From positions 1-64,000 of the forward strand of contig CAMYJU010000024.1 in NCBI GenBank assembly GCA_947258795.1: a stretch of 64,000 nucleotides of DNA, written 5' to 3'. The notes beneath the pieces were generated by a model, which saw only the letters and a list, made by a program, of their open reading frames with translations, made no database searches and had not been told where the DNA came from. Positions within the stretch are counted from its first letter, which is position 1. Every line of letters starts with the position of its first letter. Shown here one piece after another: positions 18,395 to 36,910 of this stretch. The position numbers and the translations under genes are program-made. Source of the DNA: an uncultured Gammaproteobacteria bacterium (lineage in GTDB: Bacteria > Pseudomonadota > Gammaproteobacteria > DRJJ01).

Positions 18395-18979
18395 ATGAAC
18401 GTAACACCGGGTGTCTTGCTGGTTAGTGAAACACCGGACAAGACGGAGGCATTAGAGGATACAATCAGGGAAGCGGGTTACCAGATCAAATCGCACATCA
18501 ATGTAGCGGATGATGTGCTGGAAGAGGTAAACAGTTGTGACCCGGATATCGTGATAGTGAAAACCGAGGTATCCAGCAACTATCTGATGAACCAGTTATA
18601 CAATTTGAATCAGGAGAACCCGAGACCGATAGTTATTTTCACGGACAAGAGTGAAAGAGGATTGATAGACAGTGCGATCAAGGCGGGTGTGAGTGCCTAC
18701 GTGGTGGACGGACTGACTGCCGATCGGGTGGAACCGGTACTGGAAGTCGCCATAGCGAGGTTTGTACAGGACCAGTCCTTGCGTAACGAACTGGAGAAGA
18801 CGAAGTCTCAGCTCGAAGAGCGCAAGATCATCGAAAAGGCCAAGGGCCTGATCATGAAAAGTCGCAATCTGAGTGAAGATGAGGCCTACAAGGCATTACG
18901 CAAACTGGCCATGGACCGGAACCAGAGGCTGATTGATGTAGCGACCGATGTGGTATCGGTGTCAGAATTACTGATGTAA
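18395..18979 (+). CDS. NasT-like ANTAR-domain antiterminator
   Basis: This 194-residue protein has an N-terminal receiver-like domain (about 1 to 125), a helical linker, and a C-terminal ANTAR RNA-binding domain (about 140 to 192: KIIEKAKGLIMKSRNLSEDEAYKALRKLAMD). ANTAR proteins bind paired hexaloop hairpins in leader RNAs and prevent terminator formation. Two such leaders are present in this window, one directly after this gene. The receiver looks non-phosphorylatable: the strand-3 position normally Asp is Lys (DIVIVKTEV), and the usual N-terminal acidic pair reads SE. AYVVDGL is typical of NasT. No nasS-like sensor is adjacent. The gene has its own sigma-54 promoter. Confidence 0.92.
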   Translation: MNVTPGVLLVSETPDKTEALEDTIREAGYQIKSHINVADDVLEEVNSCDPDIVIVKTEVSSNYLMNQLYNLNQENPRPIVIFTDKSERGLIDSAIKAGVSAYVVDGLTADRVEPVLEVAIARFVQDQSLRNELEKTKSQLEERKIIEKAKGLIMKSRNLSEDEAYKALRKLAMDRNQRLIDVATDVVSVSELLM

Positions 18980-19011: not shown

Positions 19012-19091
19012 GAGGCCAACGCCGGCCTCAAATATAGACAAAGACGTCATTCGTGTGGGTACAACCTACATGGATCGACGTCTTTTTTTTT
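19012..19091 (+). ncRNA. ANTAR leader RNA: two hexaloop hairpins and a terminator
   Basis: Hairpin P1 is a perfect 6-bp stem GAGGCC/GGCCTC (19012 to 19029) around the loop AACGCC. Hairpin P2 is GAC/GTC (19037 to 19048) around the loop AAAGAC; its stem is short. Both loops have A at position 1 and G at position 4, the signature recognised by ANTAR proteins. The P2 loop and 3' arm form the start of a long terminator: AAAGACGTC at 19040 pairs with GACGTCTTT at 19077, with further pairing inside and nine T residues (19083 to 19091). P2 and terminator are mutually exclusive, so the binding of the ANTAR protein should allow readthrough into the oxidoreductase operon. Confidence 0.85.
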
Positions 19092-19102: not shown

Positions 19103-21094
19103 GTGAACACAGCGGTTCATTTGGTAAATGAAAGCATGGCTAAAGAGAGCCTGGAAAACCCGGTAGTGATCATCGGCACAGGGCCTGTGGGTATCAAGGC
19201 ACTGTTGACCTTGCTGGAAAAGAATCCGGAAGAAAAAATCGTGATTTACGGGGATGAGCCCTGGGAGCCGTATAACCGGGTCAAGCTGTCATCGTTCCTG
19301 GCTGGCGAGCTGGGCTGGTCAGACCTTACCGAATCGCAAAGAGTTCCCGATCTGGAAAATCTGGTGCAGCATCATAATTGCAGGATCACTGGCATAGACA
19401 GGGAAGCTAGACTGGTTACCGATGAGACCGGCAGAAGGCAGGGCTACAGCAAACTGATACTGGCGCTGGGATCTAGCCCGCACGTGCCAGCGATAGAAGG
19501 TACTGATTTGCAGGGTGTATTTACCTTTCGTGATATGACCGACACACAAAGTCTGTTGGCCAGGCGCGCCAGGAGTAGGACGGTGGTGATTGTTGGTGGC
19601 GGTGTATTGGGCCTGGAAACAGCCAGGGCCATGTCGCGTGACAATACCAGGGTAATTGTTGTCGATCATGCCTTGAACCTGATGTCCAACCAGCTCGATG
19701 ACGATGCGGCCGAGTTGTTGAAGGAGCACATCCTGTCACTGGGTATCTATCTGTACCTGGGTTCAGGGATCAAGCGTGTGATTGGTGAATCCAGTGTTAG
19801 TGGTGTTTTGTTACATGATGGCAGAACCATAGTTTGCGATACCGTGGTTTTTTCGACCGGGATAAAACCAAACATCAAGCTGGCGCGTAATGCACGACTG
19901 ATCGTCGGCCGCGGTATCCGTGTGTCCGACACGATGCAGACCAATGATCCGGATATCTATGCAGTCGGTGAGTGTGCCGAGCATCGTAACAAGGTTTATG
20001 GTTTGGTTGCCCCGGGCTATGAGCAGGCCAAAGTCGCGGTTGCGGACATGCTCGAACAAAAAACCGCATACAAGGGTTCGGTTACGGCAACACAGCTAAA
20101 GGTGGTCGGGCTACCTGTGTTCAGTATGGGGCATACCGGAGAGGGCGAGAGTAAAAGTATCTATACCGAGTATGTGTATAACAAACCGGATTCCGGTCAC
20201 TACCAGAAAATCATCGTGTTCAGGAACCGGCTGGTCGGCGCAATATCGGTAGGTGAATGGGAATCCCTGCACCGCGTACAGGAGAGTATTTGCAAGAAAC
20301 GATATGTGTGGCCCTGGCAATTGAAGCGGTTTGAAAGGACTGGTGATCTATGGCCTGCAGTCGAAGGCAAGCATGTAGCGCAATGGCCGTCCAGTGCAAT
20401 CGTATGTAATTGCATGAGTGTCACGCGGAGTGAATGCAGCAAAGCGATTAATGCCGGTTGTACGACGGTGCCGGAAATCATGCAAAAGACCTCGGCTTCG
20501 ACCGTATGTGGTGGATGCCGGCCGTTACTCGGCGAGCTGCTTGGTGGTGTGGTCAAGGCCGAAAAAATAAAGGCGGCAAAATCCTTCCTGCTCTATTCGT
20601 TGCTGGCGATGTTGCTGGCCGGCGCCGCCTTTTTAACACCAGGTATCAGCTATAACACATCTGCAACTGATGCGTTGCAATGGGACATGGTGTGGCGCGA
20701 GAACCTGCTCAAGCAGATCAGTGGTTACAGCATGCTCGCAATACTGGCTGTTGGCTTGCTGGTGTCATTGAGAAAGCGGTGGAAACGCTTTCGTCTGTTT
20801 GACTATTCCGTCTGGCGATATGTGCATGTTCTGCTTGGCGTGCTGGTCGTTGCAGCATTGGTTACACATACCGGCTTGCGTTTTGGCAACAATCTGAATG
20901 CCTGGCTTATGATCAGCTTCAGCGGGCTGGTCCTCGCGGGCAGTGTGTATGGCGCCTTTATGTCATTCCAGCACCGGTTCGATGGCGTGCTGGTGCAACG
21001 TATTCGCGGATATATGAACTGGATACACCTGTTGCTGTTCTGGCCGGTACCGGTGTTGTTGACCTTTCATGTTTTCAAAACCTATTACTTCTAG
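19103..21094 (+). CDS. FAD oxidoreductase / BFD [2Fe-2S] / membrane b-type haem fusion
   Basis: This is a 663-residue protein read from GTG at 19103, seven bases after a GGAG site; earlier codons fall inside the terminator and are not used. Residues about 20 to 390 are a two-dinucleotide-binding oxidoreductase like the N-terminus of NirB, with VVIIGTGPVGIKAL (FAD), VVIVGGGVLGLETA (NAD(P)H) and DIYAVGECAEH. A bacterioferritin-ferredoxin-like [2Fe-2S] domain follows with Cys435, 437, 469 and 472 (CXC-X31-CXXC). From about residue 490 there are four to five membrane helices with four histidines (YVHVLL, VTHTGL, WIHLLL, TFHVFK), as in b-type cytochromes. NirB's sirohaem domain is absent. The layout suggests electrons pass from NAD(P)H through the membrane to the multihaem cytochrome encoded ten bases downstream. 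Confidence 0.85.
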   Translation: MNTAVHLVNESMAKESLENPVVIIGTGPVGIKALLTLLEKNPEEKIVIYGDEPWEPYNRVKLSSFLAGELGWSDLTESQRVPDLENLVQHHNCRITGIDREARLVTDETGRRQGYSKLILALGSSPHVPAIEGTDLQGVFTFRDMTDTQSLLARRARSRTVVIVGGGVLGLETARAMSRDNTRVIVVDHALNLMSNQLDDDAAELLKEHILSLGIYLYLGSGIKRVIGESSVSGVLLHDGRTIVCDTVVFSTGIKPNIKLARNARLIVGRGIRVSDTMQTNDPDIYAVGECAEHRNKVYGLVAPGYEQAKVAVADMLEQKTAYKGSVTATQLKVVGLPVFSMGHTGEGESKSIYTEYVYNKPDSGHYQKIIVFRNRLVGAISVGEWESLHRVQESICKKRYVWPWQLKRFERTGDLWPAVEGKHVAQWPSSAIVCNCMSVTRSECSKAINAGCTTVPEIMQKTSASTVCGGCRPLLGELLGGVVKAEKIKAAKSFLLYSLLAMLLAGAAFLTPGISYNTSATDALQWDMVWRENLLKQISGYSMLAILAVGLLVSLRKRWKRFRLFDYSVWRYVHVLLGVLVVAALVTHTGLRFGNNLNAWLMISFSGLVLAGSVYGAFMSFQHRFDGVLVQRIRGYMNWIHLLLFWPVPVLLTFHVFKTYYF

Positions 21095-21103
21095 GCGCAG
21101 GTC

Positions 21104-22489
21104 ATGAGTAGCGGAAACAGGGCCTGGTGGGGTTTGTGGCTGATATTGAGTGCAGGCACAGGCATATTTTTAACGATGCAGTTAACGGGTGAAGACAAAT
21201 CGGTGTTTTTGCCGGGTAAAACCAGTAATGGCCATTACCAGATCGAGCTGGCCTGTTCGGCATGCCATACCGATCCACTTGGTGGTGGCGAAGTATTGCA
21301 ACAGGCCTGTATGAACTGTCATGGCGAAGAGCTGGAAGTGGCTGATGACTCTCATCCAAAGTCCAAGTTTACCAATCCAAGGAATGCAGACCGAGTGAAA
21401 AAACTGGATGCCAGAAAATGCGTTACCTGTCATACCGAGCACAGGGAGGACATCACTCTGGAAATGGGAGTTACCTTACCGGCTGACTTCTGCTTCAAAT
21501 GCCATAGTGATGTGGCTGAGAACAGACCCAGTCATCAGGGTATGGCGTTTACGACCTGTGCTTCAGCAGGTTGTCACAACTTTCACGATAATCGCGGACT
21601 GTATGAAGACTTCCTGATCAAGCATCTGGATGAACCGGATTTACATGATGAGCTGAAACTGAACCCCCTGTCACTGGCGGACGCTTACCTGGCCACAGAT
21701 AGCTACCCGACTGAGCGATATCCGTACAGGGTGTTGGGAGATTCTGAGGCTGACCGGCCCGAGTCTGTCAGGAGTGATGCCAGGATCATGCAGGACTGGA
21801 TGGACAGCTCGCACCGTAAAGCCGGCGTGAACTGTAGTGCTTGTCATGAACAGCGGCTGGATGGAGAGGCCGCTCCTGTCTGGGTCGACAGACCTGGTCA
21901 TCAGGCGTGTAGCGCTTGTCATGGTGGCCAGGCTACAGGTTTTCTGGCCGGCAAGCACGGTATGCGCCTGGCGCAGAATCTGCCGGCAATGGTGCCCGGA
22001 CAGGCACGCAGCAAGATGAAGAAGAATGTGCATGAACGGGAAGTGGGTTGTGTGTCCTGTCATGGTGCCCATCGATTTGAGCGAGCACATGCGGCAGTGG
22101 ATGCCTGCCTGGGCTGTCATGACGATCAGCACAGCCTGGCCTACAAGGACTCGCCCCATTTCGATCTCTGGTATCGGGAGACAAACGGGCTGGCAGAAAA
22201 AAATACCGGTGTCTCCTGTGCCACCTGCCACCTACCCAGGAAAACGGTGCGCCTGGATGGCAAGGACATGGTCATGGCCGAACACAACCAGAACGATAAT
22301 CTGCGCCCGAATGAAAAAATGTTGCGCAGCGTCTGTATGCAGTGTCATGGGTTGAGGTTCTCAATCGATGCACTGGCTGATGAAAATCTAATCGGAAATA
22401 ATTTTTCGGAAAAGCCTGGCGTATATATCGAAAGCCTGGATCTTGTGAAAAAACGCCTGGATTTAAAAAAAGACATTCAGGATTTGTAA
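21104..22489 (+). CDS. Membrane-anchored 11-haem cytochrome c
   Basis: This 461-residue protein has an uncleaved N-terminal anchor (residues 8 to 25) and a periplasmic body. I count ten CXXCH haem sites (starting at Cys51, 69, 106, 130, 244, 269, 316, 335, 372 and 411) and one CX4CH site (Cys152, CASAGCH), so eleven potential haems. No NrfA-type CWNCK or CXXCK active-site motif is present. The spacing resembles the octahaem nitrite reductase/hydroxylamine oxidoreductase superfamily only loosely. It may be a reductase for a nitrogen oxide or an electron conduit. It is the second gene of the ANTAR-controlled operon and probably accepts electrons from the preceding fusion protein. Confidence 0.87.
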   Translation: MSSGNRAWWGLWLILSAGTGIFLTMQLTGEDKSVFLPGKTSNGHYQIELACSACHTDPLGGGEVLQQACMNCHGEELEVADDSHPKSKFTNPRNADRVKKLDARKCVTCHTEHREDITLEMGVTLPADFCFKCHSDVAENRPSHQGMAFTTCASAGCHNFHDNRGLYEDFLIKHLDEPDLHDELKLNPLSLADAYLATDSYPTERYPYRVLGDSEADRPESVRSDARIMQDWMDSSHRKAGVNCSACHEQRLDGEAAPVWVDRPGHQACSACHGGQATGFLAGKHGMRLAQNLPAMVPGQARSKMKKNVHEREVGCVSCHGAHRFERAHAAVDACLGCHDDQHSLAYKDSPHFDLWYRETNGLAEKNTGVSCATCHLPRKTVRLDGKDMVMAEHNQNDNLRPNEKMLRSVCMQCHGLRFSIDALADENLIGNNFSEKPGVYIESLDLVKKRLDLKKDIQDL

Positions 22490-22512
22490 TTGTAAAACGT
22501 AGGAGAGAAACC

Positions 22513-23085
22513 ATGAAATTGAAAAACGTAGTGTTGGTAAGTGGGATCATCAGTTCGTCTTTATTGCTGTCTGCATGTGGCGGTGAGGAGAAATCGAGCG
22601 GCATTGATCCCAAGGTAATGGCCGACTCGCTCCACAGTGTTATGGAAGCGGACAGAACGGTTTATACCAAGCTGATCATCAATCGGCTGGCCAAGGATGA
22701 GAAGGTGATCAAGGCCTCCGAGCACTGGAAGGATGACAAGGCCCTGGTATTGCCTGCACAGATGTTCCGCTATGGCGCTGAACGAGTTGCCGAGAAAGGT
22801 GCGCCATTCAGTTACTCGCTGTTGTCCTTATGGCCGGTCAACAAGCAGAACAAGCCCAAGACCGATGCCGAGGTAAGCGGGCTTAACTATATAGCCGAGA
22901 ACCCGGGCAAGAATTTCTATTCCGAGGAAGAACTCGGTGGCATCAAGTACTTCACAGCCGTGTACCCGGATATCGCGGTCGCACCGGCATGTACTTCATG
23001 TCACAACAAGCACAAGGACAGCCCGCGTACCGACTTCAAGATGGGTGAGGTCATGGGCGGCGTTGTCATCCGTATTCCACTTTAA
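22513..23085 (+). CDS. DUF3365/Tll0287-like haem lipoprotein
   Basis: This is a 190-residue protein with a lipoprotein signal (LLLSACGG, Cys22). A Tll0287-like domain follows, recognisable by PAQMFRYGAERV, FSYSLLSLWPVNKQN and FYSEEELGGIKYFTAVYPDIAVAPACTSCHNKH, with a single c-type haem site CTSCH near residue 160. Such domains occur as sensor modules and as small periplasmic cytochromes. Here it is free-standing, so an electron-transfer or small-ligand-binding (for example NO) role is more likely than signalling, by inference. An AGGAGAG ribosome site precedes the ATG. It lies between the 11-haem cytochrome and the globin in one operon. Confidence 0.85.
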   Translation: MKLKNVVLVSGIISSSLLLSACGGEEKSSGIDPKVMADSLHSVMEADRTVYTKLIINRLAKDEKVIKASEHWKDDKALVLPAQMFRYGAERVAEKGAPFSYSLLSLWPVNKQNKPKTDAEVSGLNYIAENPGKNFYSEEELGGIKYFTAVYPDIAVAPACTSCHNKHKDSPRTDFKMGEVMGGVVIRIPL

Positions 23086-23114
23086 ATCAAAACTGACAAA
23101 ACAGGAGAGTTGTT

Positions 23115-23531
23115 ATGACACCAGAACAAATCAAACTTGTACAGGAAAGCTGGGCCAGCGTAAAACCAATTTCCGAAAAGGCAGCGGAGCTGTTTTACGG
23201 CAAGTTGTTTGAACTTAACCCGGCATACAGGGAGCTGTTTCCTGAAGACATGGTTGAGCAAGGCCGCAAGCTGATGGCCATGATCAACACGGCGGTCAAC
23301 AGCCTGAACAACCTTGAAGCCGTGGTTCCTGCGGTTGAAGAAATGGGCAAGCGTCATGTCGGCTATGGCGTCAAGGAAGAAGATTACGATGTCGTCGGCG
23401 AGGCCCTGTTATGGACCCTGGGCGCAGGTCTCGGTGATGCCTTTACCGATGAGGTCAAGCAGGCCTGGACCGACACCTATGTACTTCTAGCAACAACAAT
23501 GAAAAATGCTGCAGCTAGCATGGCTGCATAA
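23115..23531 (+). CDS. Single-domain bacterial haemoglobin
   Basis: This 138-residue globin resembles the haem domain of flavohaemoglobins and Vitreoscilla haemoglobin. Key residues visible are Tyr B10 in LFYGKLFELNP, the CD-corner Phe in ELFPEDM, Gln E7 in VEQGRKLM, and the proximal His F8 in EEMGKRHVGYGV. There is no reductase domain. Tyr/Gln distal pairs bind oxygen and NO tightly. As the last gene of an operon for nitrogen-oxide chemistry it probably protects against nitric oxide, which is an inference from context. A strong terminator follows at 23554. Confidence 0.93.
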   Translation: MTPEQIKLVQESWASVKPISEKAAELFYGKLFELNPAYRELFPEDMVEQGRKLMAMINTAVNSLNNLEAVVPAVEEMGKRHVGYGVKEEDYDVVGEALLWTLGAGLGDAFTDEVKQAWTDTYVLLATTMKNAAASMAA

Positions 23532-23809: not shown

Positions 23810-23895
23810 ATGGCCCAATGGCGGGTCATGTTGAATCGAAGGCAAAGGCGCCTATGAGTACACGTGTTTCGCGTGTGTTCGTAGGCGCCTTTTTT
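23810..23895 (+). ncRNA. ANTAR leader RNA of the nrt operon with overlapping terminator
   Basis: P1 is ATGGCCC/GGGTCAT (23810 to 23829, one G-U pair) around the hexaloop AATGGC. P2 is TCGAAGGC/GCCTATGA (23836 to 23857, one mismatch) around AAAGGC. Both loops carry A1 and G4. The 3' arm of P2 is also part of the 5' arm of a 20-bp terminator stem (AAGGCGCCTA at 23845 pairing with TAGGCGCCTT ending at 23891), followed by TTTTTT. Binding of the NasT-like protein to P1-P2 should block the terminator and let transcription enter nrtA. Same design as the leader at 19012, with a stronger P2. Confidence 0.9.
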
Positions 23896-23939: not shown

Positions 23940-25325
23940 ATGAACATAATAACTAAGCGCAAGCGTTTTTTGAAATCGAGTATGGCCATGATCGCCGGTC
24001 TGGCCATGTCGGTATTCGGCAGCCAGGCCGTCGCCGAAGTTGGAGAGCCTGAAAAGGAAGAGCTCAAGTTCGGCTTTATCAAGCTGACCGATATGGCGCC
24101 CTTGGCCGTGGCCTATGAGAAAGGCTACTTCGAGGACGAAGGTCTGTATGTGACGCTGGAGGCCCAGGCTAACTGGAAAGTCCTGCTCGACCGTGTCATT
24201 GACGGTGAACTGGACGGCGCGCACATGCTGGCCGGTCAGCCGCTGGGCGCGACCATCGGTTTTGGTACCAAGGCCCATATAATTACTGCGTTCAGTATGG
24301 ACCTGAATGGTAACGGCATCACGGTTTCCAATGAAATCTGGAAACAGATGAAGAAACATGTCCCTCACAAGGACGGCAAACCGGTTCATCCAATCAAGGC
24401 GGACTACCTGAAACCGGTAGTTGACCAGTACCAGAAGGAAGGCAAGCCGTTCAAGATGGGTATGGTATTCCCGGTATCGACGCATAACTATGAGTTGCGT
24501 TACTGGTTGGCCGCCGGCGGTATCCATCCCGGTTACTATGCCCCGCACAAGGGTGATACCAGTGGCAACCTGGATGCCGATGCATTGCTTTCGGTTACAC
24601 CACCACCACAGATGCCATCGACCATGGAGGCTGGAACCATCTATGGCTATTGCGTCGGTGAACCGTGGAACCAGCAGGCCGTATTCAAGGGCATCGGCGT
24701 ACCGGTGATTACTGACTACGAAATCTGGAAAGATAACCCTGAAAAGGTTTTTGGTGTCAGCAAGGGCTGGGCCGACAAGTATCCGAACACCCACATCCGT
24801 GTGGTCAAGGCGATGATCCGTGCTGCGCAGTGGCTGGACGAGGGTAACAACAAGAACCGTCCGGAGGCGGTCAAGATTCTGTCCAAGAGCCAGTATGTAG
24901 GCGCCGACTATGATGTGATCGCGAACAGCATGACCGGTACTTTTGAATATGAAAAGGGCGACAAGCGTGAAGTGCCGGACTTCAACGTGTTCTTCCGTTA
25001 TAACGCGACCTATCCGTATTACAGTGATGCGATCTGGTATCTGACCCAGATGCGCCGCTGGGGCCAGATTTCCGAACAGAAACCGGATAGCTGGTACAAG
25101 GACATCGCCAAGAAGGTCTACCGTCCGGACATTTATGCGCAGGCTGCGAAAGAGCTGATCAAGGAAGGCAAGGTCAAGGCCTCGGACTTCCCCGAGTTCA
25201 AAACCGAGACCGGTTTCCGCAAACCTCAGACCGAATTCATAGATGGGGTGACCTATGACGGTACCAAGCCGAATGAGTATCTGAAGAAGTTCAAGATCGG
25301 TCTGAAAGGGAAGGACAAGATCTGA
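23940..25325 (+). CDS. nrtA: Nitrate ABC transporter substrate-binding protein (NrtA-like)
   Basis: This is a 461-residue periplasmic receptor read from the ATG at 23940; a TTG at 23928 is in frame but abuts the AGAGG ribosome site. The N-terminus ([29 protein letters not shown]) is an export signal. The body matches the NrtA/CmpA group of nitrate, cyanate and bicarbonate receptors: [84 protein letters not shown]. Length is normal. Nitrate specificity is inferred from the ANTAR leader and neighbours, since residues binding the ligand cannot be assigned by eye. Confidence 0.9.
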
Positions 25326-25346
25326 TAGCTGTAGATAAAGGCAGTA

Positions 25347-25368
25347 ACCCCGGCATTGATGCCGGGGT
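25347..25368 (+). repeat. GC-rich intercistronic hairpin between nrtA and nrtB
   Basis: ACCCCGGCAT pairs with ATGCCGGGGT across a tiny loop. Only a short T-run (TTTT) follows after a few bases. Such hairpins often stabilise the 3' end of binding-protein mRNA and reduce downstream expression rather than ending all transcription. Confidence 0.65.
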
Positions 25369-25388
25369 GATTTTAGAGGACACACACA

Positions 25389-26396
25389 ATGAGCACACAA
25401 GTTATAAACATCATCGGAAATCTGAACATCAGAAATCAGACGACAAAGTTTATTGAATGGATAACGGATGCACCTAAGGTATTCAATGCGATTGGTATCC
25501 CGGCGTTATCCATCATGATCTTTCTTATGGTCTGGGGTGGTCTGGCAGCACAGGTGAATACATCACTTGGGCAGTTGCCAGGGCCCTCAAAGGTCTGGGA
25601 GCAAACCAAAACGCTTTATGCCGAACATGTCGAGGAACGGAATAAAGAAGTTGCATTTTACGAACGCCAGGAAAAGCGTAACGCGAAAAAGCTGGAGAAG
25701 AATCCGGATGCAAAGGTAAAAATCCGTCCCTATACTGGCAAGCCAACGTTTTTCGACCAGGTACTGACCAGTATCGTTACGGTAATAACCGGGTTCCTGC
25801 TGGCCAGCCTGATCGCGATACCGGTCGGAATCGTCTGTGGCCTGAGTACCACCCTGTATACCGCGTTGAACCCGTTGATCCAGACCTTCAAGCCGGTATC
25901 GCCACTGGCCTGGCTGCCGATTGTGACCATGATCGTCAGTGCGGTCTATATCAGCGATGACCCGATGTTCGATAAATCATTCATTAACTCGGCGATTACC
26001 GTGATGCTGTGTTGTATGTGGCCAACCATTATCAATACCACGGTCGGCGTGTCCACGATTGACAAGGACCTGGTCAATGTCAGTCGCGTACTCCGCCTGG
26101 GCTGGATGACCAATGTGTTCAAGATCGTATTGCCATCATCCATACCGATGATGTTTGCCGGTCTGCGTGTTTCACTGGGTATTGGCTGGATGGTACTGAT
26201 CGCGGCCGAGATGCTGGCGCAAAACCCGGGACTGGGCAAGTTCGTCTGGGATGAGTTCCAGAATGGCAGTTCCAACTCACTGGCCCGTATCATGGTGGCT
26301 GTTTTTGCAATCGGTTTAATCGGATTTCTGCTGGATTGGCTAATGCTATCGTTACAAAAGTCGGTTAGCTGGGATAAATCAGCGGTTATTCGCTAG
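25389..26396 (+). CDS. nrtB: Nitrate ABC transporter permease (NrtB-like)
   Basis: This 335-residue inner-membrane permease is of the NitT/TauT type. After a first membrane helix (IPALSIMIFLMVWGGLAA) there is a charged insert of about 40 residues (EERNKEVAFYERQEKRNAKKLEKN), longer than in simple permeases and typical of NrtB-like members. The remaining five helices include the EAA-type coupling loop (VSRVLRLGWMTNVFKIVLPSSIPMMFAGLRVSLG). It should pair as a dimer with the ATPase encoded next. An AGAGGA ribosome site precedes the ATG. Confidence 0.92.
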   Translation: MSTQVINIIGNLNIRNQTTKFIEWITDAPKVFNAIGIPALSIMIFLMVWGGLAAQVNTSLGQLPGPSKVWEQTKTLYAEHVEERNKEVAFYERQEKRNAKKLEKNPDAKVKIRPYTGKPTFFDQVLTSIVTVITGFLLASLIAIPVGIVCGLSTTLYTALNPLIQTFKPVSPLAWLPIVTMIVSAVYISDDPMFDKSFINSAITVMLCCMWPTIINTTVGVSTIDKDLVNVSRVLRLGWMTNVFKIVLPSSIPMMFAGLRVSLGIGWMVLIAAEMLAQNPGLGKFVWDEFQNGSSNSLARIMVAVFAIGLIGFLLDWLMLSLQKSVSWDKSAVIR

Positions 26397-26407
26397 GAGG
26401 TATGACA

Positions 26408-27262
26408 ATGAAACATCTTGAAATATCACAGGTATCGATGGAATTTGAAACTCCGGCCGGGCCGTTTGTCGCGTTGGAGAATGTGGATCTGACGATCGCA
26501 GAGGGTGAATTCGTATCCCTGATCGGCCACTCGGGCTGTGGTAAGTCCACCGTATTGAATATCGTTGCCGGACTACATCAGGCGACACGTGGTGGCGTGA
26601 TCCTGGACGGTAAGGAGGTGAATGAGCCAGGGCCGGACCGGGCCGTGGTGTTCCAGAACCACTCACTGTTGCCCTGGCTGACTGCCTATGAAAATGTCGA
26701 GTTGGCCGTAAAGCAGGTATTCAGGGGCAGTAAGTCAAATGCTGAAATGCGTGACTGGATCAAACACAACCTTGAACTGGTGCATATGGAACACGCGATG
26801 GACAAGCGCCCGAGCGAAATATCAGGCGGCATGAAACAGCGTGTCGGAATCGCTCGGGCCCTGGCCATGGAACCGAAGGTGCTGCTTATGGATGAACCGT
26901 TCGGTGCGCTGGATGCGCTGACCCGTGCGCATATGCAGGATTCCCTGATTGAGATCCAGGCCAGGTTAAATAACACGGTAATCATGATTACCCATGATGT
27001 GGATGAGGCGGTATTGCTGTCTGACCGGATCGTGATGATGACTAACGGCCCGGCAGCAACAGTGGGCGAGATACTTCCGATTGATCTGCCACGACCACGT
27101 AACCGTGTCAAGCTGGCCGGTGACGCGCAGTATAACGAGTATCGTGCTGAAGTATTGAAGTTCCTGTACGAACGTCAGCGCAAGATCGAGTCGGTACCAA
27201 CTGCCTCTGAAGACAAGGGAACGAAGGACAAGCAGGATGATAAGGAAGGAATAGCTGCATAA
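26408..27262 (+). CDS. Nitrate ABC transporter ATP-binding protein (NrtC/NrtD-like)
   Basis: This 284-residue ATPase is read from the second ATG (26408), which has the better distance to the AGGAGG site at 26395; an ATG at 26402 is too close. Motifs in order are Walker A GHSGCGKST, Q-loop VVFQNHSLLPWL, signature SGGMKQRVGIARAL, Walker B VLLMDEPFGALDA and switch TMITHDVDEAV-type IMITHDVDEA. There is one ATPase gene only, so NrtC's C-terminal receptor domain is absent and the transporter resembles a homodimeric NrtD arrangement. A charged tail of about 25 residues ends it. Confidence 0.92.
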   Translation: MKHLEISQVSMEFETPAGPFVALENVDLTIAEGEFVSLIGHSGCGKSTVLNIVAGLHQATRGGVILDGKEVNEPGPDRAVVFQNHSLLPWLTAYENVELAVKQVFRGSKSNAEMRDWIKHNLELVHMEHAMDKRPSEISGGMKQRVGIARALAMEPKVLLMDEPFGALDALTRAHMQDSLIEIQARLNNTVIMITHDVDEAVLLSDRIVMMTNGPAATVGEILPIDLPRPRNRVKLAGDAQYNEYRAEVLKFLYERQRKIESVPTASEDKGTKDKQDDKEGIAA

Positions 27263-29258: not shown

Positions 29259-29759
29259 ATGAAGCGTACAATCACTCGGGCCCAGTTCTTACGGGGCAAC
29301 TTTCGTGGTCGCAATCACCTAATACGTCCACCCTGGCATGCCAGTGAGCCACATTTCGTTGATGCCTGCACACGCTGTAGTGAGTGCATAGCGGCATGTC
29401 CAGAAAAAATCATCCAGAAAGACAGGCATGGCTTTCCAATGGTCAGTTTTCAATCAGGTGAATGCACTTTTTGTGCTGCCTGTGCGCAGCAGTGTCCAAC
29501 CCAGGCATTAAATTATGATCAGTCAGCCAGTCCCTGGAGCATCAGGGCGGGCATCGGTGATGCCTGTCTGCCGCTGAAAGGGGTTGTCTGTATGAGCTGT
29601 GCAGACGAATGTGAGCTCAGGGCGATCCGCTTACGAATGGTTGCCGGTGGGGTGGCGATACCCGTACTGGATACCGAAACCTGCAATGGCTGTGGCGCTT
29701 GTGTCCAGATCTGCCCGACATCCGCCATAGCCATGCATTCCTACGGAGAAGACAGATGA
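29259..29759 (+). CDS. napF: NapF ferredoxin-type protein
   Basis: This 166-residue cytoplasmic iron-sulfur protein is involved in maturation of NapA. It has three clear [4Fe-4S] motifs of CX2CX2CX3C type (CTRCSECIAACPE, CTFCAACAQQCPT, CNGCGACVQICPT) and a fourth Cys cluster (CMSCADEC). The N-terminal RAQFLRGNF segment is typical of NapF. It overlaps napD by four bases (ATGA), so translation is coupled. First gene of the nap operon. Confidence 0.95.
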   Translation: MKRTITRAQFLRGNFRGRNHLIRPPWHASEPHFVDACTRCSECIAACPEKIIQKDRHGFPMVSFQSGECTFCAACAQQCPTQALNYDQSASPWSIRAGIGDACLPLKGVVCMSCADECELRAIRLRMVAGGVAIPVLDTETCNGCGACVQICPTSAIAMHSYGEDR

Positions 29760-30019
29760 ATACCGCTGCTGAAATTGAACAGGCAGGCTCGATCAATATA
29801 TGCGGATTACTGGTGCATGCGCGGCCTGAAAATGTACACAAGGTCCAGCACAGGCTGCTCGAATTCGAGGGCGTTGAAGTGCATGATCTGAGCGACGACG
29901 GGCGCATGGTTGTGACCATCGACAAGCGCGACCCGGGAGAGATGATCGACACCATTAACAGTATCAATACAGTGGAGGGCATACTCTCCGCTGCAATGGT
30001 TTATCAACATCACGAATAA
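29756..30019 (+). CDS. napD: NapD chaperone for NapA
   Basis: This is an 87-residue protein; the ATG overlaps the napF stop and has a GGAG site eight bases ahead, so longer in-frame starts are rejected. It matches Nap[49 protein letters not shown]. NapD binds the Tat signal of NapA and delays export until the molybdenum cofactor is inserted. Confidence 0.95.
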
Positions 30020-30047
30020 TCAAGGACTGCCTACAGGAGGCTTTCTA

Positions 30048-32558
30048 ATGAAACAAACGAGGCGTGAATTTATCAAGAACAACGCGATTGCTGCGACAGC
30101 CGCAGCCGCCGGTGTGACCCTGCCTGGCGTCAAGCTGGCCGAGGCTACGCAGACGCGTGACATGATTCGGTGGGACAAGGCGCCATGCCGGTTCTGCGGG
30201 ACCGGGTGCAGCGTGCTGGTCGGTACACAAAACGACAGGGTGGTAGCAACACAGGGTGACCCTGATGCGCCGGTTAATCGTGGCCTGAATTGTATCAAGG
30301 GCTATTTCCTGTCCAAGATCATGTATGGCAGAGACCGATTGACCAAACCCCTGCTGCGCATGACCAACGGCAAGTACGACAAGAATGGTGAATTTGCCGA
30401 GGTCAGCTGGGACCAAGCGTTTGATGTGATGGCTGAAAAATGGAAACAGGCGTTAAAGAAAAAAGGACCTACGTCGGTGGGGATGTTTGGTTCCGGTCAA
30501 TGGACGGTATGGGAGGGCTATGCCGCTTCAAAACTGTTCAAGGCAGGTTTTCGTTCGAATAACATCGATCCGAATGCCCGTCATTGTATGGCCTCGGCGG
30601 TGGGTGCGTTTATCCGTGGTTTTGGCGCCGATGAGCCGATGGGTTGTTACGATGATCTGGAGCACGCGGATGTATTTGTACTCTGGGGTGCGAATATGGC
30701 AGAAATGCACCCGATCCTGTGGTCACGCCTGTCAGACACGCGTCTAACCCGGCCCGGCAGCGAAGTCCATGTATTGTCCACTTTCGAGCACCGTTGTTTT
30801 GACCTGGCGGACAATGGCATGGTGTTTACACCACAGACCGATCTGGCGATCCTGAATTACATCGCCAATTACATCATCCAGAACAAGGCCTATAACAAGG
30901 ACTTTGTTGACAAGCATGTCAATTTCACCAAAACAGCAACTGATATCGGTTATGGACTTCGTCCTGAGCACCCACTGGAAAAGAAAGCCAAAAATCCGGG
31001 TAAGGGCAAGCTCAGCAAAATCAGTTTCGATGAATACGCGAAATCCGTTTCAAAATATACGCTGGATTATGCTTCCGAACTGAGTGGTGTGCCGAAGGAG
31101 CAGCTGGAGCGCCTGGCCAAGGTCTATGCAGACCCGAACAAGAAAGTGGCCTCCTACTGGACCATGGGCTTCAACCAGCACACCCGCGGCGTGTGGGTAA
31201 ACGGTCTGCTGTACAATGTGCATTTGCTGATGGGCAAGATATCCGAGCCCGGTAACAGCCCGTTCTCGCTGACCGGGCAACCGTCAGCCTGTGGTACGGC
31301 GCGTGAAGTGGGTACCTTTGCACATCGCCTGCCGGCCGACCTGGTGGTCAAGAACAAAAAGCACCGGGATTTTTCTGAAAAGATCTGGAAACTGCCGGAA
31401 GGCACCATCCCGGGCAAGCCCGGTTACCATGCCGTTCTGCAAAACCGCATGCTGAAAGATGGCAAGCTCAATGCCTATTGGGTCATGTGCAATAACAATA
31501 TGCAGGCAGCGCCCAATATGAATGAAGAGGGCTATCCGGGTTATCGCAATCCCGAAAACTTTATTGTGGTATCCGATCCTTATCCAACGGTTACTGCTCA
31601 GGCTGCCGATTTGATTTTACCGACCGCGATGTGGGTCGAAAAGGAAGGTGCCTATGGTAATGCTGAACGCCGTACCCAGTTTTGGCGTCAGCAGGTAACG
31701 CCACCGGGCGAGTCCAGATCTGACCTGTGGCAGTTAATGGAGTTTTCCAAGCGCTTTAAGGTGGAAGAGGTCTGGCCTGAAGAGCTGGTTGCAAAGATGC
31801 CGGAGTACAAAGGCAAGACCCTGTACGACATCCTGTACAAAAACGGTCAGGTCGACAAGTATCCGGTTCAGCAGGTTACCGATGGACGAGATGGTATATA
31901 CCACAATCAGGAAATGGAGGACTTCGGTTTCTATGTGCAAAAGGGGCTTTACGAGGAATATCGCCTGTTTGGACTGCAGGGGCCGAAAAAAGGCCATGAA
32001 CTGGCCGAGTTCGATCACTATCACCAGGTACGTGGCCTGCGTTGGCCGGTAATCGATGGCAAGGAAACACTGTGGCGCTATCGTGAAGGTTATGACCCGT
32101 TGGTCAAAAAAGGCGCCGGGGTCGAGTTCTATGGCAAACCTGATGGCCGTGCGAATATCATTTTTGCACCGTATGAGCCTGCAGCCGAAGCGCCAGACCA
32201 GGAATATGATCTGTGGCTATCCACCGGCCGTGTACTGGAGCACTGGCATTCCGGATCGATGACCCGGCGGGTACCCGAGCTGTATCGCGCGTTCCCCGAT
32301 GCTGTCATTTTCATGCATCCGGCTGATGCGAAGAAACGTGGTTTGCGCCGGGGCATGACCGCGAAAATCCAGTCGCGGCGCGGTGAAATCGTCGCCCAGG
32401 TCGAGACCCGCGGGCGTAACCGTGTACCGGAAGGTCTGGTGTTTGTACCGTGGTTTGATGCCAGCCGTCTGATCAACAAACTCACGCTGGATGCAACCGA
32501 TCCACTTTCCAAAGAAACGGACTATAAAAAATGTGCGGTGAAGGTTGTAAGGGCCTGA
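30048..32558 (+). CDS. napA: Periplasmic nitrate reductase catalytic subunit NapA
   Basis: This is an 836-residue molybdoenzyme reducing nitrate to nitrite in the periplasm. The Tat signal ([19 protein letters not shown]) is followed by the [4Fe-4S] ligands Cys47, 50, 54 and 82. The Mo-coordinating Cys is in [14 protein letters not shown]. Later segments such as [37 protein letters not shown] and [20 protein letters not shown] are characteristic of the bis-MGD family. Length agrees with NapA (about 830). It receives electrons through NapB and NapC. Confidence 0.97.
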
Positions 32559-32569
32559 GATAGGTATGT

Positions 32570-33433
32570 ATGACAGAACCTTCAAACAAGGCACGCATCA
32601 GTCGGCGGTACTTCCTGACGCGTTTGGCAAGCAGTGCCTGTGGCGTTGCCTTACTCGGCACCGGGTTGCTGATTTATTCACGTCAGGCCAGTTCACTGCC
32701 GGCGATGGCCTTACGGCCACCGGGGGCACTGCCAGAAGCGGATTTTTTGGGCGCCTGTGTGCGTTGCGGCCTGTGTGTCCGGGATTGTCCATACGATACG
32801 CTGAAGCTGGCCAGGTTGGGTGAAGATGTGGCCACCGGTACGCCCTACTTTACCGCGCGACACATTCCATGCGAGATGTGTGAGGATATTCCATGCGTTG
32901 TGGCCTGTCCTACCGGGGCACTGGAAAAGTCGCTGACCGATATCGACGATTCACGCATGGGGCTGGCCGTACTGGTTGATCAGGAGACCTGCCTGAACTT
33001 TCTGGGTCTGCGCTGTGATGTCTGTTTTCGCGTATGCCCGTTAATCAACAAGGCGATTACGCTGGAGCCGCGCCACAACCCCAGAACCGGCAAGCACACG
33101 CTGTTTATACCGGTGGTGCATTCGGATGCCTGTACTGGCTGTGGCAAGTGTGAGAAGGCCTGTGTATTACCTGAAGCGGCGATCAAGGTGTTTCCACAGC
33201 GTATGGCAAAAGGACAGGCGGCCGAACATTACCGCCTGGGCTGGGAAGAAAAACAGAAAGCTGGTGGCAGCCTGGTATCTCCTGATAAGGAGCATCAATA
33301 CACGTTGCCGGAAGGTTATCGTTATGATTATGAAGGCCAGGGGCTGATTAAAGAGGAGATTAACAAAGGAACCCCATTTGCCGATAACCCGCTGGATACC
33401 CTGAGCAGGCCACAGCAGGAGCGTGGGCAATGA
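32570..33433 (+). CDS. napG: NapG ferredoxin-type quinol oxidation protein
   Basis: This 287-residue exported iron-sulfur protein has an [14 protein letters not shown] Tat-like signal and four cysteine clusters for [4Fe-4S] centres ([50 protein letters not shown]). With NapH it forms a membrane quinol dehydrogenase feeding NapC/NapB. It overlaps napH by four bases. Confidence 0.95.
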
Positions 33434-34329
33434 ATAGTGTTACACGTCCTGGTGCCGAAGCGGTAGCCAGCAAAGGCTGGCTGGCAGCAAACAAATGGTT
33501 GCTGCTGCGGCGTATGACGCAATTCGGCGTGTTGCTGCTGTTCCTGTCAGGTCCCTGGCTGGGTGTCTGGATTATCAAGGGCAATATCGCCTCGAGCCTG
33601 ACGCTGGACGTGTTGCCGCTCAGTGATCCGTTTGTGCTGATGCAAAGTCTGTTTGCCGGTCACTGGCCGGAGACGAGCGTGTTGATCGGCGCTGCAATCA
33701 TACTGGTGTTTTATTTTCTGGTCGGCGGGCGCGTGTACTGTGGTTGGATATGTCCGGTCAATGTTATCACGGATGCAGCCGCGTGGTTACGCCTGCGACT
33801 CGGTATCAAGACCGGGGCGCGGATACCGAGGCAGAGCCGCTACTGGATACTGGGTATGACTTTTGTCATCGCCGCTTTGACAGGTGGTCTGGTCTGGGAG
33901 CTGGTCAATCCGGTTACGATGCTGTATCGCGGCCTGATTTTCGGCATGGGGATGGTCTGGTGGCTGGTGCTGGCGCTGTTTCTGTTTGACCTGCTGGTCA
34001 GCCCTCGCGGCTGGTGCAGTCACTTGTGTCCGATGGGTGCCTTTTACAGTCTGTTGGCGCTTTACACACCGGTACGTGTCAGCGCAGTCAGCCGCGAACA
34101 ATGCAATGATTGCATGGACTGTTATGCCATCTGCCCTGAGCCCCAGGTTATTCCGCCGGCATTGAAAGGTGCTGACAAGGGCGTGGGGCCGCGAATAACC
34201 GGTATCAATTGCACCAACTGTGCACGTTGTATCGATGTGTGCTCGAAAGACGTTTTTAAATTTACCATCCGTTATGACAAACGGACGGATTCGTACAAAA
34301 AACTAGACCAAAGTGAGGTCATGCCATGA
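33430..34329 (+). CDS. napH: NapH membrane ferredoxin-type protein
   Basis: This 299-residue protein has four membrane helices and cytoplasmic CXXXCP motifs after helices ([20 protein letters not shown]), then two C-terminal [4Fe-4S] motifs ([26 protein letters not shown]). It forms the membrane partner of NapG. It overlaps napG and napB by four bases each, indicating tight coupling. Confidence 0.95.
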
Positions 34330-34772
34330 AAAACAGTATGATGTATACGCTTTTGTGTGTGCTTGGTGCGTTACTTTTACTGCCTGTGTCACAGGCCGAG
34401 GAACTGAGATCCTTACGCGGGATCAATCCTCTAAATTCCGATGCCAGCAAACCCGAGATAAAAAGCTGGCAGGCTGATCGCTCACCGATCGAAAGGGAGT
34501 TTGTGCATCAGCCACCACTGATCCCGCATACCATTGAAGGCTATGTGATTAATGTGAAGTTCAATAAATGCCTGACCTGTCATAGCTGGGCGAATTACAA
34601 GGAACGAGGTGCTACCAAGATCAGCCTGACACATTTTTCAGACCGGGATGGCAATGATCTGGCCAATGTGTCTGCGCGGCGCTATTTCTGTACACAATGT
34701 CATGTTTCGCAGGTCGACGCGAAACCGCTGGTGGAAAACACATTCAAGCCTGCAGGAAATATCGGAAGATAG
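34326..34772 (+). CDS. napB: NapB dihaem cytochrome subunit
   Basis: This 148-residue periplasmic electron-transfer subunit of NapAB has a signal peptide (LLCVLGALLLLPVSQA) and two haem sites, CLTCHSW and CTQCHVS. The segments LRGINPLNSD and PPLIPHTIEGYVINVKFNKC are characteristic of NapB. Start overlaps the napH stop. Confidence 0.96.
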   Translation: MKNSMMYTLLCVLGALLLLPVSQAEELRSLRGINPLNSDASKPEIKSWQADRSPIEREFVHQPPLIPHTIEGYVINVKFNKCLTCHSWANYKERGATKISLTHFSDRDGNDLANVSARRYFCTQCHVSQVDAKPLVENTFKPAGNIGR

Positions 34773-34813
34773 TTGCTGTAGTCGTTTAGGTTTTAAAGTC
34801 TTGGGAAGCCGCT

Positions 34814-35413
34814 ATGTCAAACAATAAAACCAGTTGGTTTAAAAGCCTGAAGCAGCCCAGTGCCAAATATTCCCTGGGCGGCATTCTGATAGTCGGAATC
34901 ATTACCGGTGTGATCCTTTGGGGTGGTTTCAATACAGCGCTGGAAGTCAGTAACACGGAAACTTTCTGCATCTCGTGTCACGAGATGGAGGAAAATGTTT
35001 ACAAGGAATACCAGAATACTATTCACTATAACAACCGCAGTGGTGTGCGTGCGACCTGTCCGGATTGTCATGTACCGAAAGAATGGCACTGGAAAGTGGC
35101 AAGAAAGATAAAAGCCACGAATGAGCTGTATCACAAGGTTATGGGCTCAATCAGTACACCTGAAAAGTTCGAAGAGAAAAGACTGCAGCTCGCGCGTAAT
35201 GTCTGGAAAGTGATGAAGAAAACCGATTCACGTGAATGCCGCAACTGCCATGAATTTGAATCCATGGATTATCTGAAGCAGGGCCGGCGGGCGGTGGACA
35301 ACCATACCCGGGGTTTTGATGAAGGCAAGACCTGTATCGACTGCCATAAGGGGATAGCGCATTCGTTACCGGCCATGTACGAGGAGGACCCGAGTGCGGC
35401 GGTGGGACCTTAG
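34814..35413 (+). CDS. napC: NapC tetrahaem quinol dehydrogenase
   Basis: This 199-residue membrane-anchored cytochrome of the NapC/NirT family has one N-terminal helix (LGGILIVGIITGVILWGG) and four haem sites (CISCHEM, CPDCHVP, CRNCHEF, CIDCHKG). It transfers electrons from membrane quinol to NapB. Last gene of the nap operon; a terminator follows at 35586. Confidence 0.96.
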   Translation: MSNNKTSWFKSLKQPSAKYSLGGILIVGIITGVILWGGFNTALEVSNTETFCISCHEMEENVYKEYQNTIHYNNRSGVRATCPDCHVPKEWHWKVARKIKATNELYHKVMGSISTPEKFEEKRLQLARNVWKVMKKTDSRECRNCHEFESMDYLKQGRRAVDNHTRGFDEGKTCIDCHKGIAHSLPAMYEEDPSAAVGP

Positions 35414-35617: not shown

Positions 35618-36910
35618 TGTAGTACCCGAGAGATAGTTTACAGCGGATACCGGAGACATGGTTTACACATAGAGGCATTTGGGGAGGATCCCGGATGCCC
35701 TGGAAAGAGTGTAAATCGATGGATGAACGCCTGAAGTTTATAGCCCGCCTGCTCGATGGCGAGAAGATGGCACCACTGTGTCGGGAGTTTGGCATTTCCC
35801 GGGTCACCGGCTATAAGATCTTTAACCGCTACAAGAACTGCGGCCTGGATGGCCTGCAAGACCGAAGCCGCCGACCCTATCGGCATGCCAACAAACTGCC
35901 CTACCAGATCGAACGGACAATCCTGCATCTCAAGCGTCAACACCCCTCCTGGGGTGCACCAAAAATCCGTGACAAGCTGATCAAGGAATACCCCATGATC
36001 AAGCCACCGGCCAAGAGCACAGTACATGCCGTGCTGGACCGGCACGGTCTGGTCAAACGGCGCAAGCGGCGCCGTTACAAGGCCGAGGGAACTCCGCTCA
36101 GTGACACCCATGCCCCCAACGGACTGTGGTGTGCTGACTACAAGGGTGAGTTCTTGCTGGGTAACAAGCAGTACTGTTATCCGCTCACCATCACTGACTA
36201 TCGCTCCCGTTACCTGCTGGCCTGTGAGGGGCTGGAGTCTACCCGGTCGGCCTTTGCCTTTAGCGTCTTTGAACGGGTGTTTAAGGACTACGGGTTGCCC
36301 AGAGCCATTCGTACCGACAACGGCGTGCCGTTCTCAAGTCCCAATGCCCTGTTTGGCCTGAGCAAGCTCTCGGTGTGGTGGCTGCGCCTGGGCATCCGCA
36401 TCGAGCGCATCCAGCCCGGCCACCCCGAGCAGAACGGCCGCCACGAACGCATGCACCTGACCCTGAAGAAGGAAGCAACTCAGCCCGCATCCTTCAACTG
36501 CCTGCAGCAGCAGGGCCGGTTCGATGATTTCATCGAGGTTTACAATAATCAGCGACCGCACCAGGCGCTTAACGGTAACTACCCGGGCGAAGTGTATACA
36601 CCCTCAACCCGAATATACGAGCAACCCCAGGAGCCAGAGTACCCGTTTCACGACCGTACAGCCAGAGTGACCCAATGCGGGAGAATCTGCATCAAACAAC
36701 GCAAAATCAACCTGAGTGTTGTATTTGCCGGGCAAACCGTGGGGATTAAGGAAGTCGCCGACAATATCTGGCTTGTCAGCTTCATGGATTATGATCTAGG
36801 ATTCTTTGATGAGGAGGTTGGCCGGATTGAACCGGCCACCAACCCTTTTGATCCGGAAAAGTGTTAACTATGTCTCCGGTATAAAATGTAAACCATGTTT
36901 CCGGTCTACA
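35618..36910 (+). mobile_element. IS481-family-like insertion sequence
   Basis: The element is bounded by inverted ends starting TGTAG (35618 and complement of 36910). Each end contains two tandem copies, 25 bases apart, of a motif like ACCGGAGACATGGTTTAC; spacing is identical at both ends. One transposase gene fills the middle. No target-site duplication is visible: the left flank is T-rich and the right flank is the interior of a tRNA gene. The missing duplication suggests recombination after insertion. Confidence 0.85.
35695..36867 (+). CDS. IS481-family DDE transposase
   Basis: This is a 390-residue transposase, apparently intact. The N-terminus is a helix-turn-helix of the Leu-rich type (LCREFGISRVTGYKIFNRY, LDGLQDRSRRP). 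The DDE integrase core shows Asp in LWCADYKGEF, Asp in IRTDNGVPFSS and Glu in HPEQNGRHERMH, followed by the YNNQRPHQAL motif. A GGGGAGGA ribosome site lies six bases ahead of the ATG. The C-terminal 80 residues form a small beta-rich extension seen in some IS481 members. Confidence 0.93.
   Translation: MPWKECKSMDERLKFIARLLDGEKMAPLCREFGISRVTGYKIFNRYKNCGLDGLQDRSRRPYRHANKLPYQIERTILHLKRQHPSWGAPKIRDKLIKEYPMIKPPAKSTVHAVLDRHGLVKRRKRRRYKAEGTPLSDTHAPNGLWCADYKGEFLLGNKQYCYPLTITDYRSRYLLACEGLESTRSAFAFSVFERVFKDYGLPRAIRTDNGVPFSSPNALFGLSKLSVWWLRLGIRIERIQPGHPEQNGRHERMHLTLKKEATQPASFNCLQQQGRFDDFIEVYNNQRPHQALNGNYPGEVYTPSTRIYEQPQEPEYPFHDRTARVTQCGRICIKQRKINLSVVFAGQTVGIKEVADNIWLVSFMDYDLGFFDEEVGRIEPATNPFDPEKC

Follow-up and report, generated by a model that had tools for sequence, protein, structure and literature searches.

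A putative NAD(P)H-to-periplasm electron conduit with an undecahaem cytochrome accompanies assimilatory nitrate reduction in many bacteria

The stretch of DNA analysed here (the window) is 64,000 nucleotides of contig CAMYJU010000024.1 (assembly GCA_947258795.1), from an uncultured gammaproteobacterium of the DRJJ01 lineage, and it contains a four-gene operon that probably encodes an electron conduit from cytoplasmic NAD(P)H to the periplasm. The genes specify a fusion flavocytochrome, a membrane-anchored undecahaem cytochrome c (MHC11), a DUF3365 haem lipoprotein and a globin, with intergenic gaps of 9, 23 and 29 bases (Table 1). A preliminary description of this module, made from the sequence alone, was right and can now be put more strongly: its coordinates, gaps, GTG start (19103), domain content and eleven haem sites were all confirmed. 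The electron route that it proposed, from NAD(P)H across the membrane to a periplasmic multihaem protein, is supported by the cofactor sites, the membrane His pairs and the 11-haem protein, whereas the further suggestion of a periplasmic nitrite reductase for nitrogen assimilation is probably not correct. The module is apparently undescribed: searches of the literature, with most subscription journals outside coverage, found neither an account of it nor an experiment on it. Members of many bacterial phyla carry it in almost identical form. Its genomic company marks it as a predicted accessory of assimilatory nitrate reduction, one that accompanies NirBD or NirA and is not itself the nitrite reductase of that pathway.

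Conservation of the module

A scan of genome contigs found 143 MHC11 relatives. The record names of the best 80 loci include Gamma-, Beta- and Alphaproteobacteria, Nitrospirota, Verrucomicrobia, Planctomycetes, Poribacteria, Dadabacteria, Binatia, Bryobacterales and Myxococcales; no relative was found in the plasmid collection. Gene neighbourhoods were counted in the 63 loci flanked by 3 kb or more on each side. The DUF3365 gene is present in all 63 and the fusion gene in 62 (directly upstream in 61), and thus the fusion, MHC11 and DUF3365 genes form an almost invariant unit, with the globin as the usual fourth member (a globin or truncated haemoglobin is encoded in 54 loci). Recurrent neighbours include a gene for a small c-type cytochrome and a ferredoxin-reductase-like gene. 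The seemingly long MHC11 open reading frames in four loci (L050, L053, L055 and L063) probably reflect an extension out of frame through GC-rich DNA, not gene fusion.

On a complete Binatia chromosome (L075), the module has genes for urease and urea transport as neighbours, and this genome has no NirB, other sirohaem reductase or clear NasA. A genome of 1.7 Mb (G225) has two copies of the module core (L146 and L147) and no NasA match.

A NirB-like flavoprotein joined to a membrane domain

The fusion protein matches the NirB profile TIGR02374 over positions 1-479 of 794 only (394.6 bits against a cut-off of 578), and a full-length match to this profile that includes the sirohaem domain was not obtained. 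It matches Pyr_redox_2, Rubredoxin_C and Fer2_BFD, with four conserved Cys (C435, C437, C469 and C472) in the BFD [2Fe-2S] domain, and the sirohaem half of NirB is replaced by a five-helix membrane domain. Membrane His 575/589 and 642/656 are invariant in 77 sequences and form two pairs, each spaced 14 residues, on two helices. Two such pairs are the pattern expected of b haems stacked across the membrane, as in NOX/ferric-reductase and bc1-type cytochromes, and from these four invariant His the membrane domain is predicted to hold two b haems. The fusion of a NirB-like part, a BFD domain and a His-bearing membrane domain, as well as the loss of the sirohaem part, had been recognised in the preliminary description; its single b haem is corrected here to two. 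Similarity of the membrane domain to known families is marginal: Ferric_reduct (PF01794) gives 20.4 bits against a cut-off of 28, with two of 46 members matching at all, the DUF4405 profile is also marginal, and a Foldseek search of the modelled domain (pLDDT 91) against the PDB gave no significant match.

The fusion also resembles NorW (E=1.6e-50), which would suit a role of the flavoprotein part mainly as reductase of the globin, with the latter acting as a cytoplasmic NO (nitric oxide) dioxygenase and the membrane/haem branch venting excess electrons; in Bradyrhizobium, Flp may likewise donate electrons to Bjgb (PMC4724949). However, the globin is absent from nine of the 63 loci whereas DUF3365 is never absent, and the four invariant membrane His also speak against this role, which we consider improbable.

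An undecahaem cytochrome related to HAO

All 89 MHC11 homologues compared have exactly ten CXXCH motifs and one CX4CH motif, and none has CXXCK. In the N-terminal part, a membrane anchor is accompanied by a tetrahaem region of the c3 type (the Cytochrom_c3_2 profile matches 65 of 65 members) and by the haem of the CX4CH motif. The six haems of the C-terminal part fall within the superfamily of hydroxylamine oxidoreductase (HAO), octahaem nitrite reductase (ONR) and NrfA: profile searches reach NrfA and ONR at about 4e-10, and in hhalign the MHC11 alignment matches that of HAO (99.5%, E=1.7e-22) with the six haems in register, MHC11 haems 6, 7, 8, 9, 10 and 11 corresponding to HAO haems 2, 3, 5, 6, 7 and 8. 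This register is anchored by an arrangement common to both, namely CxxCHxxHxF, 9-10 residues, ACxxCH and then His. HAO haem 1 has no counterpart in MHC11, nor has haem 4, the catalytic haem of HAO, whose motif is exactly deleted, directly before haem 5. Haem 4 is also the active site of octahaem nitrite reductases (PMC12285233). In a Foldseek search, the MHC11 model (pLDDT 85, pTM 0.85) had HAO as its sole significant match (6t5e, E=8.5e-4); the superposition is loose (TM 0.29, root-mean-square deviation 15.5), and it is therefore the sequence-profile register that carries the argument.

Membership of a characterised extracellular-electron-transfer family, named in the preliminary description as a finding that would overturn it, was not encountered, as DmsE/MtrA-type profiles fall far under their cut-offs (TIGR03508 for DmsE, 48 bits against 192). 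In a control comparison, the alignment with DmsE-type decahaem cytochromes scored 74 against 175 for HAO, and DmsE/MtrA was rejected as the main relationship of MHC11 on this clearly weaker profile comparison. A porin-like gene, its type unconfirmed by family match, is near eight of the 63 loci.

In addition to the eleven motif His, eleven further His are invariant in MHC11 (five of each in the N-terminal half, six of each in the C-terminal half), such that each haem could be bis-His ligated. Because the HAO-like half is without its catalytic haem and eleven extra His are invariant, the simplest reading is that MHC11 would serve as an electron wire and not as a nitrite or hydroxylamine enzyme. 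Two features qualify this reading: H343, one of the extra His, occupies the position of the HAO active-site His in the alignment, and the C-terminal distal His of HAO has no counterpart in MHC11. An open haem is therefore possible; haem 10 (equivalent to HAO haem 7) may lack this C-terminal distal His and could be open. Together with the kinship to HAO, ONR and NrfA, the invariant polar stretches HNQN..NLRPNEKM.R and CHNFHDN, and a Binatia genome (G129) that has the module without any sirohaem reductase, this would fit a periplasmic reductase of nitrite, NO or hydroxylamine to ammonium, with catalysis at a haem other than the equivalent of HAO haem 4. The exact deletion of the haem 4 motif, a full set of extra His for all eleven haems, the absence of CXXCK and the sirohaem reductases of nearly all carrier genomes (see below) are at odds with such an enzyme, so that the reductase activity previously ascribed to MHC11 is not supported and appears unlikely.

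In another locus (L151, 2912-7000), an HAO-like octahaem gene is clustered with genes for a tetrahaem cytochrome, a pentahaem cytochrome and a hepta-haem/cytochrome b-like fusion; the cluster may encode a further redox system with a link to HAO.

DUF3365 lipoprotein and globin

The third protein matches PF11845 with a CXXCH motif. It is a stand-alone lipoprotein and is extremely conserved across 87 sequences (LPAQMFR, SLWPiNkQN and CHNxHKDSP), in which there is no conserved Cys beyond the lipobox and CXXCH and hence no conserved distal Cys. Domains of the DUF3365/Tll0287 family are Cache domains with a c haem; members with a signalling role bind NO and behave as NO sensors (PMC12889525). The closest solved relatives of the globin are PDB entries 3wfw (E=3e-31) and 3s1i (E=7e-26), which are proteins of the Methylacidiphilum HGb type.

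ANTAR leaders shared with nitrate uptake

A gene for a NasT-like ANTAR regulator is located upstream of the operon, and the leader occupies the interval between this gene and the fusion gene. The hallmark of ANTAR targets is a pair of hexaloop hairpins in which the first loop base is A and the fourth is G (PMC3369931). The leader, attributed to ANTAR antitermination from the outset, is a true dual-hexaloop target, in which both loops (AACGCC and AAAGAC) have A1 and G4 and stand ahead of a terminator. The nitrate-transporter genes nrtABC (23940-27262) are likewise behind a dual-hexaloop ANTAR leader with a terminator; given the same kind of leader before both, the operon and nitrate uptake appear to share one regulon. 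Of 72 sequences taken from ahead of the fusion gene, 24 contain an AnnGnn hexaloop, compared with 5% of shuffled sequences, and the placement of the second hairpin (P2) at the base of the terminator recurs in the leaders of two further loci (L016 and L017). Dual-hexaloop leaders are also found in other lineages. A dedicated NasS partner sensor was not found in this genome, where the sole NasS/NrtA-like match is the transporter's own nrtA (23940); nasS-like genes are beside the module, next to nasT, in loci L076 and L084. An NsrR-like repressor gene adjoins the operon in seven loci. Both ANTAR/nitrate control and a nitrogen-oxide context, as first proposed, are supported.

Nitrate and nitrite reductases of carrier genomes

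That the window contains no nirBD, nasA or nrfA is literally true, as had been noted, and incomplete: a nap cluster is in the window, and contig C1 of this genome has nirBD, encoding NirB and a NirD-like Rieske protein, together with genes for a NarK-like transporter and, adjoining a DmsB/DmsC-like protein, a nitrate-reductase-type molybdoenzyme. Of the 53 carrier genomes, 44 encode full-length NirB (the present one among them), and the remainder hold sirohaem-reductase domain proteins, except for one Binatia genome (NirB or such a protein in 52 of 53), with weaker evidence for eight NirB-poor genomes, as PF03460 alone cannot tell NirA from sulfite reductase. True NrfA was identified in one carrier only (G130). 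Among 369 genomes of the class, 26 carry the module and 22 of these encode NasA, as against 140 of the 343 without it (Fisher p=1.6e-5, with no correction for phylogeny). A route standing in for a missing nitrite reductase, as the preliminary description had it, is not supported by the prevalence of full NirB, and the module was rejected as a replacement for NirBD on the 52 of 53 count.

Both the module and a Nap cluster (29259-35413) are in this window, and the conduit could conceivably feed this periplasmic nitrate reductase. However, a Nap-like gene is near only one of 88 module loci and the Nap cluster here has its own NapGH and NapC; as proximity of the two is not conserved, a feed to Nap was rejected and is very improbable.

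In locus L096 (5108-8352), a PP2C-phosphatase/protein-kinase fusion gene is next to genes for a NarK-like major facilitator superfamily transporter and nirBD, with a similar pair in L099 and L103; conserved phosphorylation control of nitrate uptake is possible.

Proposed function

For the conduit, electrons would pass from NAD(P)H to FAD, the [2Fe-2S] cluster, the two b haems in turn and the eleven bis-His haems, and from there to the DUF3365 haem or, as an alternative acceptor, the small c-type cytochrome. NO or another reactive nitrogen oxide arising from nitrate assimilation would be bound and reduced at the terminal haem, and the globin would clear NO in the cytoplasm. The connection with NO draws on the globin, the NsrR-like genes, NO binding by some DUF3365 domains and the precedent of Bradyrhizobium, in which a nas-linked globin and flavoprotein encoded by narK-bjgb-flp-nasC protect from NO (PMC4724949). 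We tentatively favour a nitrate-induced conduit whose substrate is a nitrogen oxide, most likely NO, and which serves in defence against it, at somewhat less than an even chance. The fullest version, in which an HAO-derived wire driven by a NirB-derived flavocytochrome ends at an sCache haem lipoprotein of a new kind, which reduces or senses NO and so protects nitrate assimilation, is more doubtful.

Several observations weigh against this nitrogen-oxide function. A nitrate-assimilation marker is within 10 kb in only 31 of the 63 loci; some carriers have no NasA (G011, G183, G225 with its two module copies, and Binatia G129), and in G129 the module is next to urease genes, in a genome without sirohaem reductases. 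From these exceptions, nitrate reduction is not a strict requirement for the module. The NsrR-like proteins score under the NsrR cut-off. The one stand-alone DUF3365 protein that has been tested, from P. putida, binds NO weakly, has Cys/His ligation and was judged to be of the redox type (PMC12889525). The last argument is tempered, as the Cys/His haem ligation of that redox subtype is not found here; stand-alone yet without a conserved distal Cys, the lipoprotein of the module fits neither tested example.

The absence of nitrate reduction genes from some carriers, and a layout that resembles NOX/ferric-reductase and MsrQ-type conduits (with weak PF01794 matches), would also be consistent with a general NAD(P)H-driven supply of reductant to the envelope, for redox balancing or the reduction of metals or periplasmic proteins, which is co-regulated with nitrate uptake. 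The NasT-type leader, the frequency of the globin and the enrichment of NasA argue for a more specific function, as do the lack of any recognised Mtr-type porin and the few loci with a porin-like gene nearby; a general supply seems quite unlikely.

Features of the window

Table 1. Features of the module and neighbouring nitrate genes in the window.
Feature	Position	Strand	Evidence or remark
nasT-like regulator (receiver-like and ANTAR RNA-binding domains)	18395..18979	+	PF03861 ANTAR E=4.3e-21; Response_reg 2.4e-5
ANTAR leader hairpin P1, stem GAGGCC/GGCCTC, hexaloop AACGCC (A1, G4)	19012..19029	+	RNA fold
ANTAR leader hairpin P2, GAC(AAAGAC)GTC, at 5' base of terminator	19037..19048	+	sequence reading
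Intrinsic terminator and T tract, alternative to P2	19040..19091	+	fold; leader z-score -5.6
Fusion (FAD/NAD(P)H oxidoreductase, BFD [2Fe-2S], five-helix membrane domain), GTG start at 19103	19103..21094	+	
MHC11, membrane-anchored undecahaem cytochrome c	21104..22489	+	
DUF3365/Tll0287-like (sCache_haem) lipoprotein, one c haem	22513..23085	+	PF11845 E=5.9e-20
Single-domain globin	23115..23531	+	PF00042
Second ANTAR dual hairpin, TGGCCC(AATGGC)GGGTCA and AGGC(AAAGGC)GCCT	23811..23853	+	ahead of nrtA; then terminator to about 23896
NrtA, nitrate-transporter-type substrate-binding protein	23940..25325	+	PF13379 E=5.9e-100
NrtB, nitrate ABC permease	25389..26396	+	TIGR01183 E=7e-47, under its cut-off
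NrtC, nitrate ABC ATPase	26402..27262	+	TIGR01184 348 bits, over cut-off 292
napF-napA-napG-napH-napC-like cluster (periplasmic nitrate reductase)	29259-35413		

Between napC and a cytochrome c gene there is an IS-like, integrase-type transposase-like gene (35695-36867). A match to the Rfam family 5_ureB_sRNA (RF02514, E=4.7e-25) on the minus strand (43676-43962) is antisense to the gene for the urease alpha subunit, within a large region of urease and urea ABC-transporter genes (about 41-54 kb).

Implications

If the proposed function is correct, many nitrate-assimilating bacteria would possess a periplasmic redox system, driven by NAD(P)H, that has so far escaped notice. In it, an HAO-family scaffold would be reused as a wire and the NirB flavin/[2Fe-2S] module would assume a transmembrane role, and stand-alone DUF3365 haem proteins would gain a physiological role. 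Cultured carriers include Alcanivorax, Spongiibacter, Cerasicoccus and Sedimenticola strains, in which the function is directly testable. For metagenome surveys, the module would be a warning against scoring such genes as nitrite or hydroxylamine reductases.

Comparison with known systems

With HAO, ONR and NrfA, MHC11 has in common the order of its C-terminal six haems and ligand His. The catalytic haem of this superfamily (HAO haem 4, NrfA haem 1) is usually bound by CXXCK in NrfA and ONR. MHC11 differs by having no haem 1, catalytic haem 4, CXXCK or C-terminal helical domain, and by the addition of an N-terminal five-haem part and a membrane anchor. The fusion agrees with NirB in its FAD/NAD(P)H part and its BFD [2Fe-2S] domain, with the sirohaem half exchanged for a five-helix, two-b-haem membrane domain. 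In NOX/ferric reductases and MsrQ systems, cytoplasmic NAD(P)H and flavin supply two b haems across the membrane, with the acceptor outside; the fusion resembles these in layout and in the His pairs spaced 13-14 residues on two membrane helices, whereas the module differs in its flavoprotein, the extra [2Fe-2S] cluster and an 11-haem acceptor, and the link in sequence is marginal.

In the Bradyrhizobium narK-bjgb-flp-nasC system, too, NasS-NasT controls a globin and an FAD oxidoreductase together with nitrate assimilation, although no membrane cytochrome b, multihaem cytochrome or DUF3365 lipoprotein was reported there (PMC4724949). As in Tll0287 and other DUF3365 (sCache_haem) proteins (PMC12889525), the third protein of the module is a Cache domain with a CXXCH c haem, in the form of a stand-alone lipoprotein; it differs in having no conserved distal Cys and in possessing strongly conserved motifs of its own.

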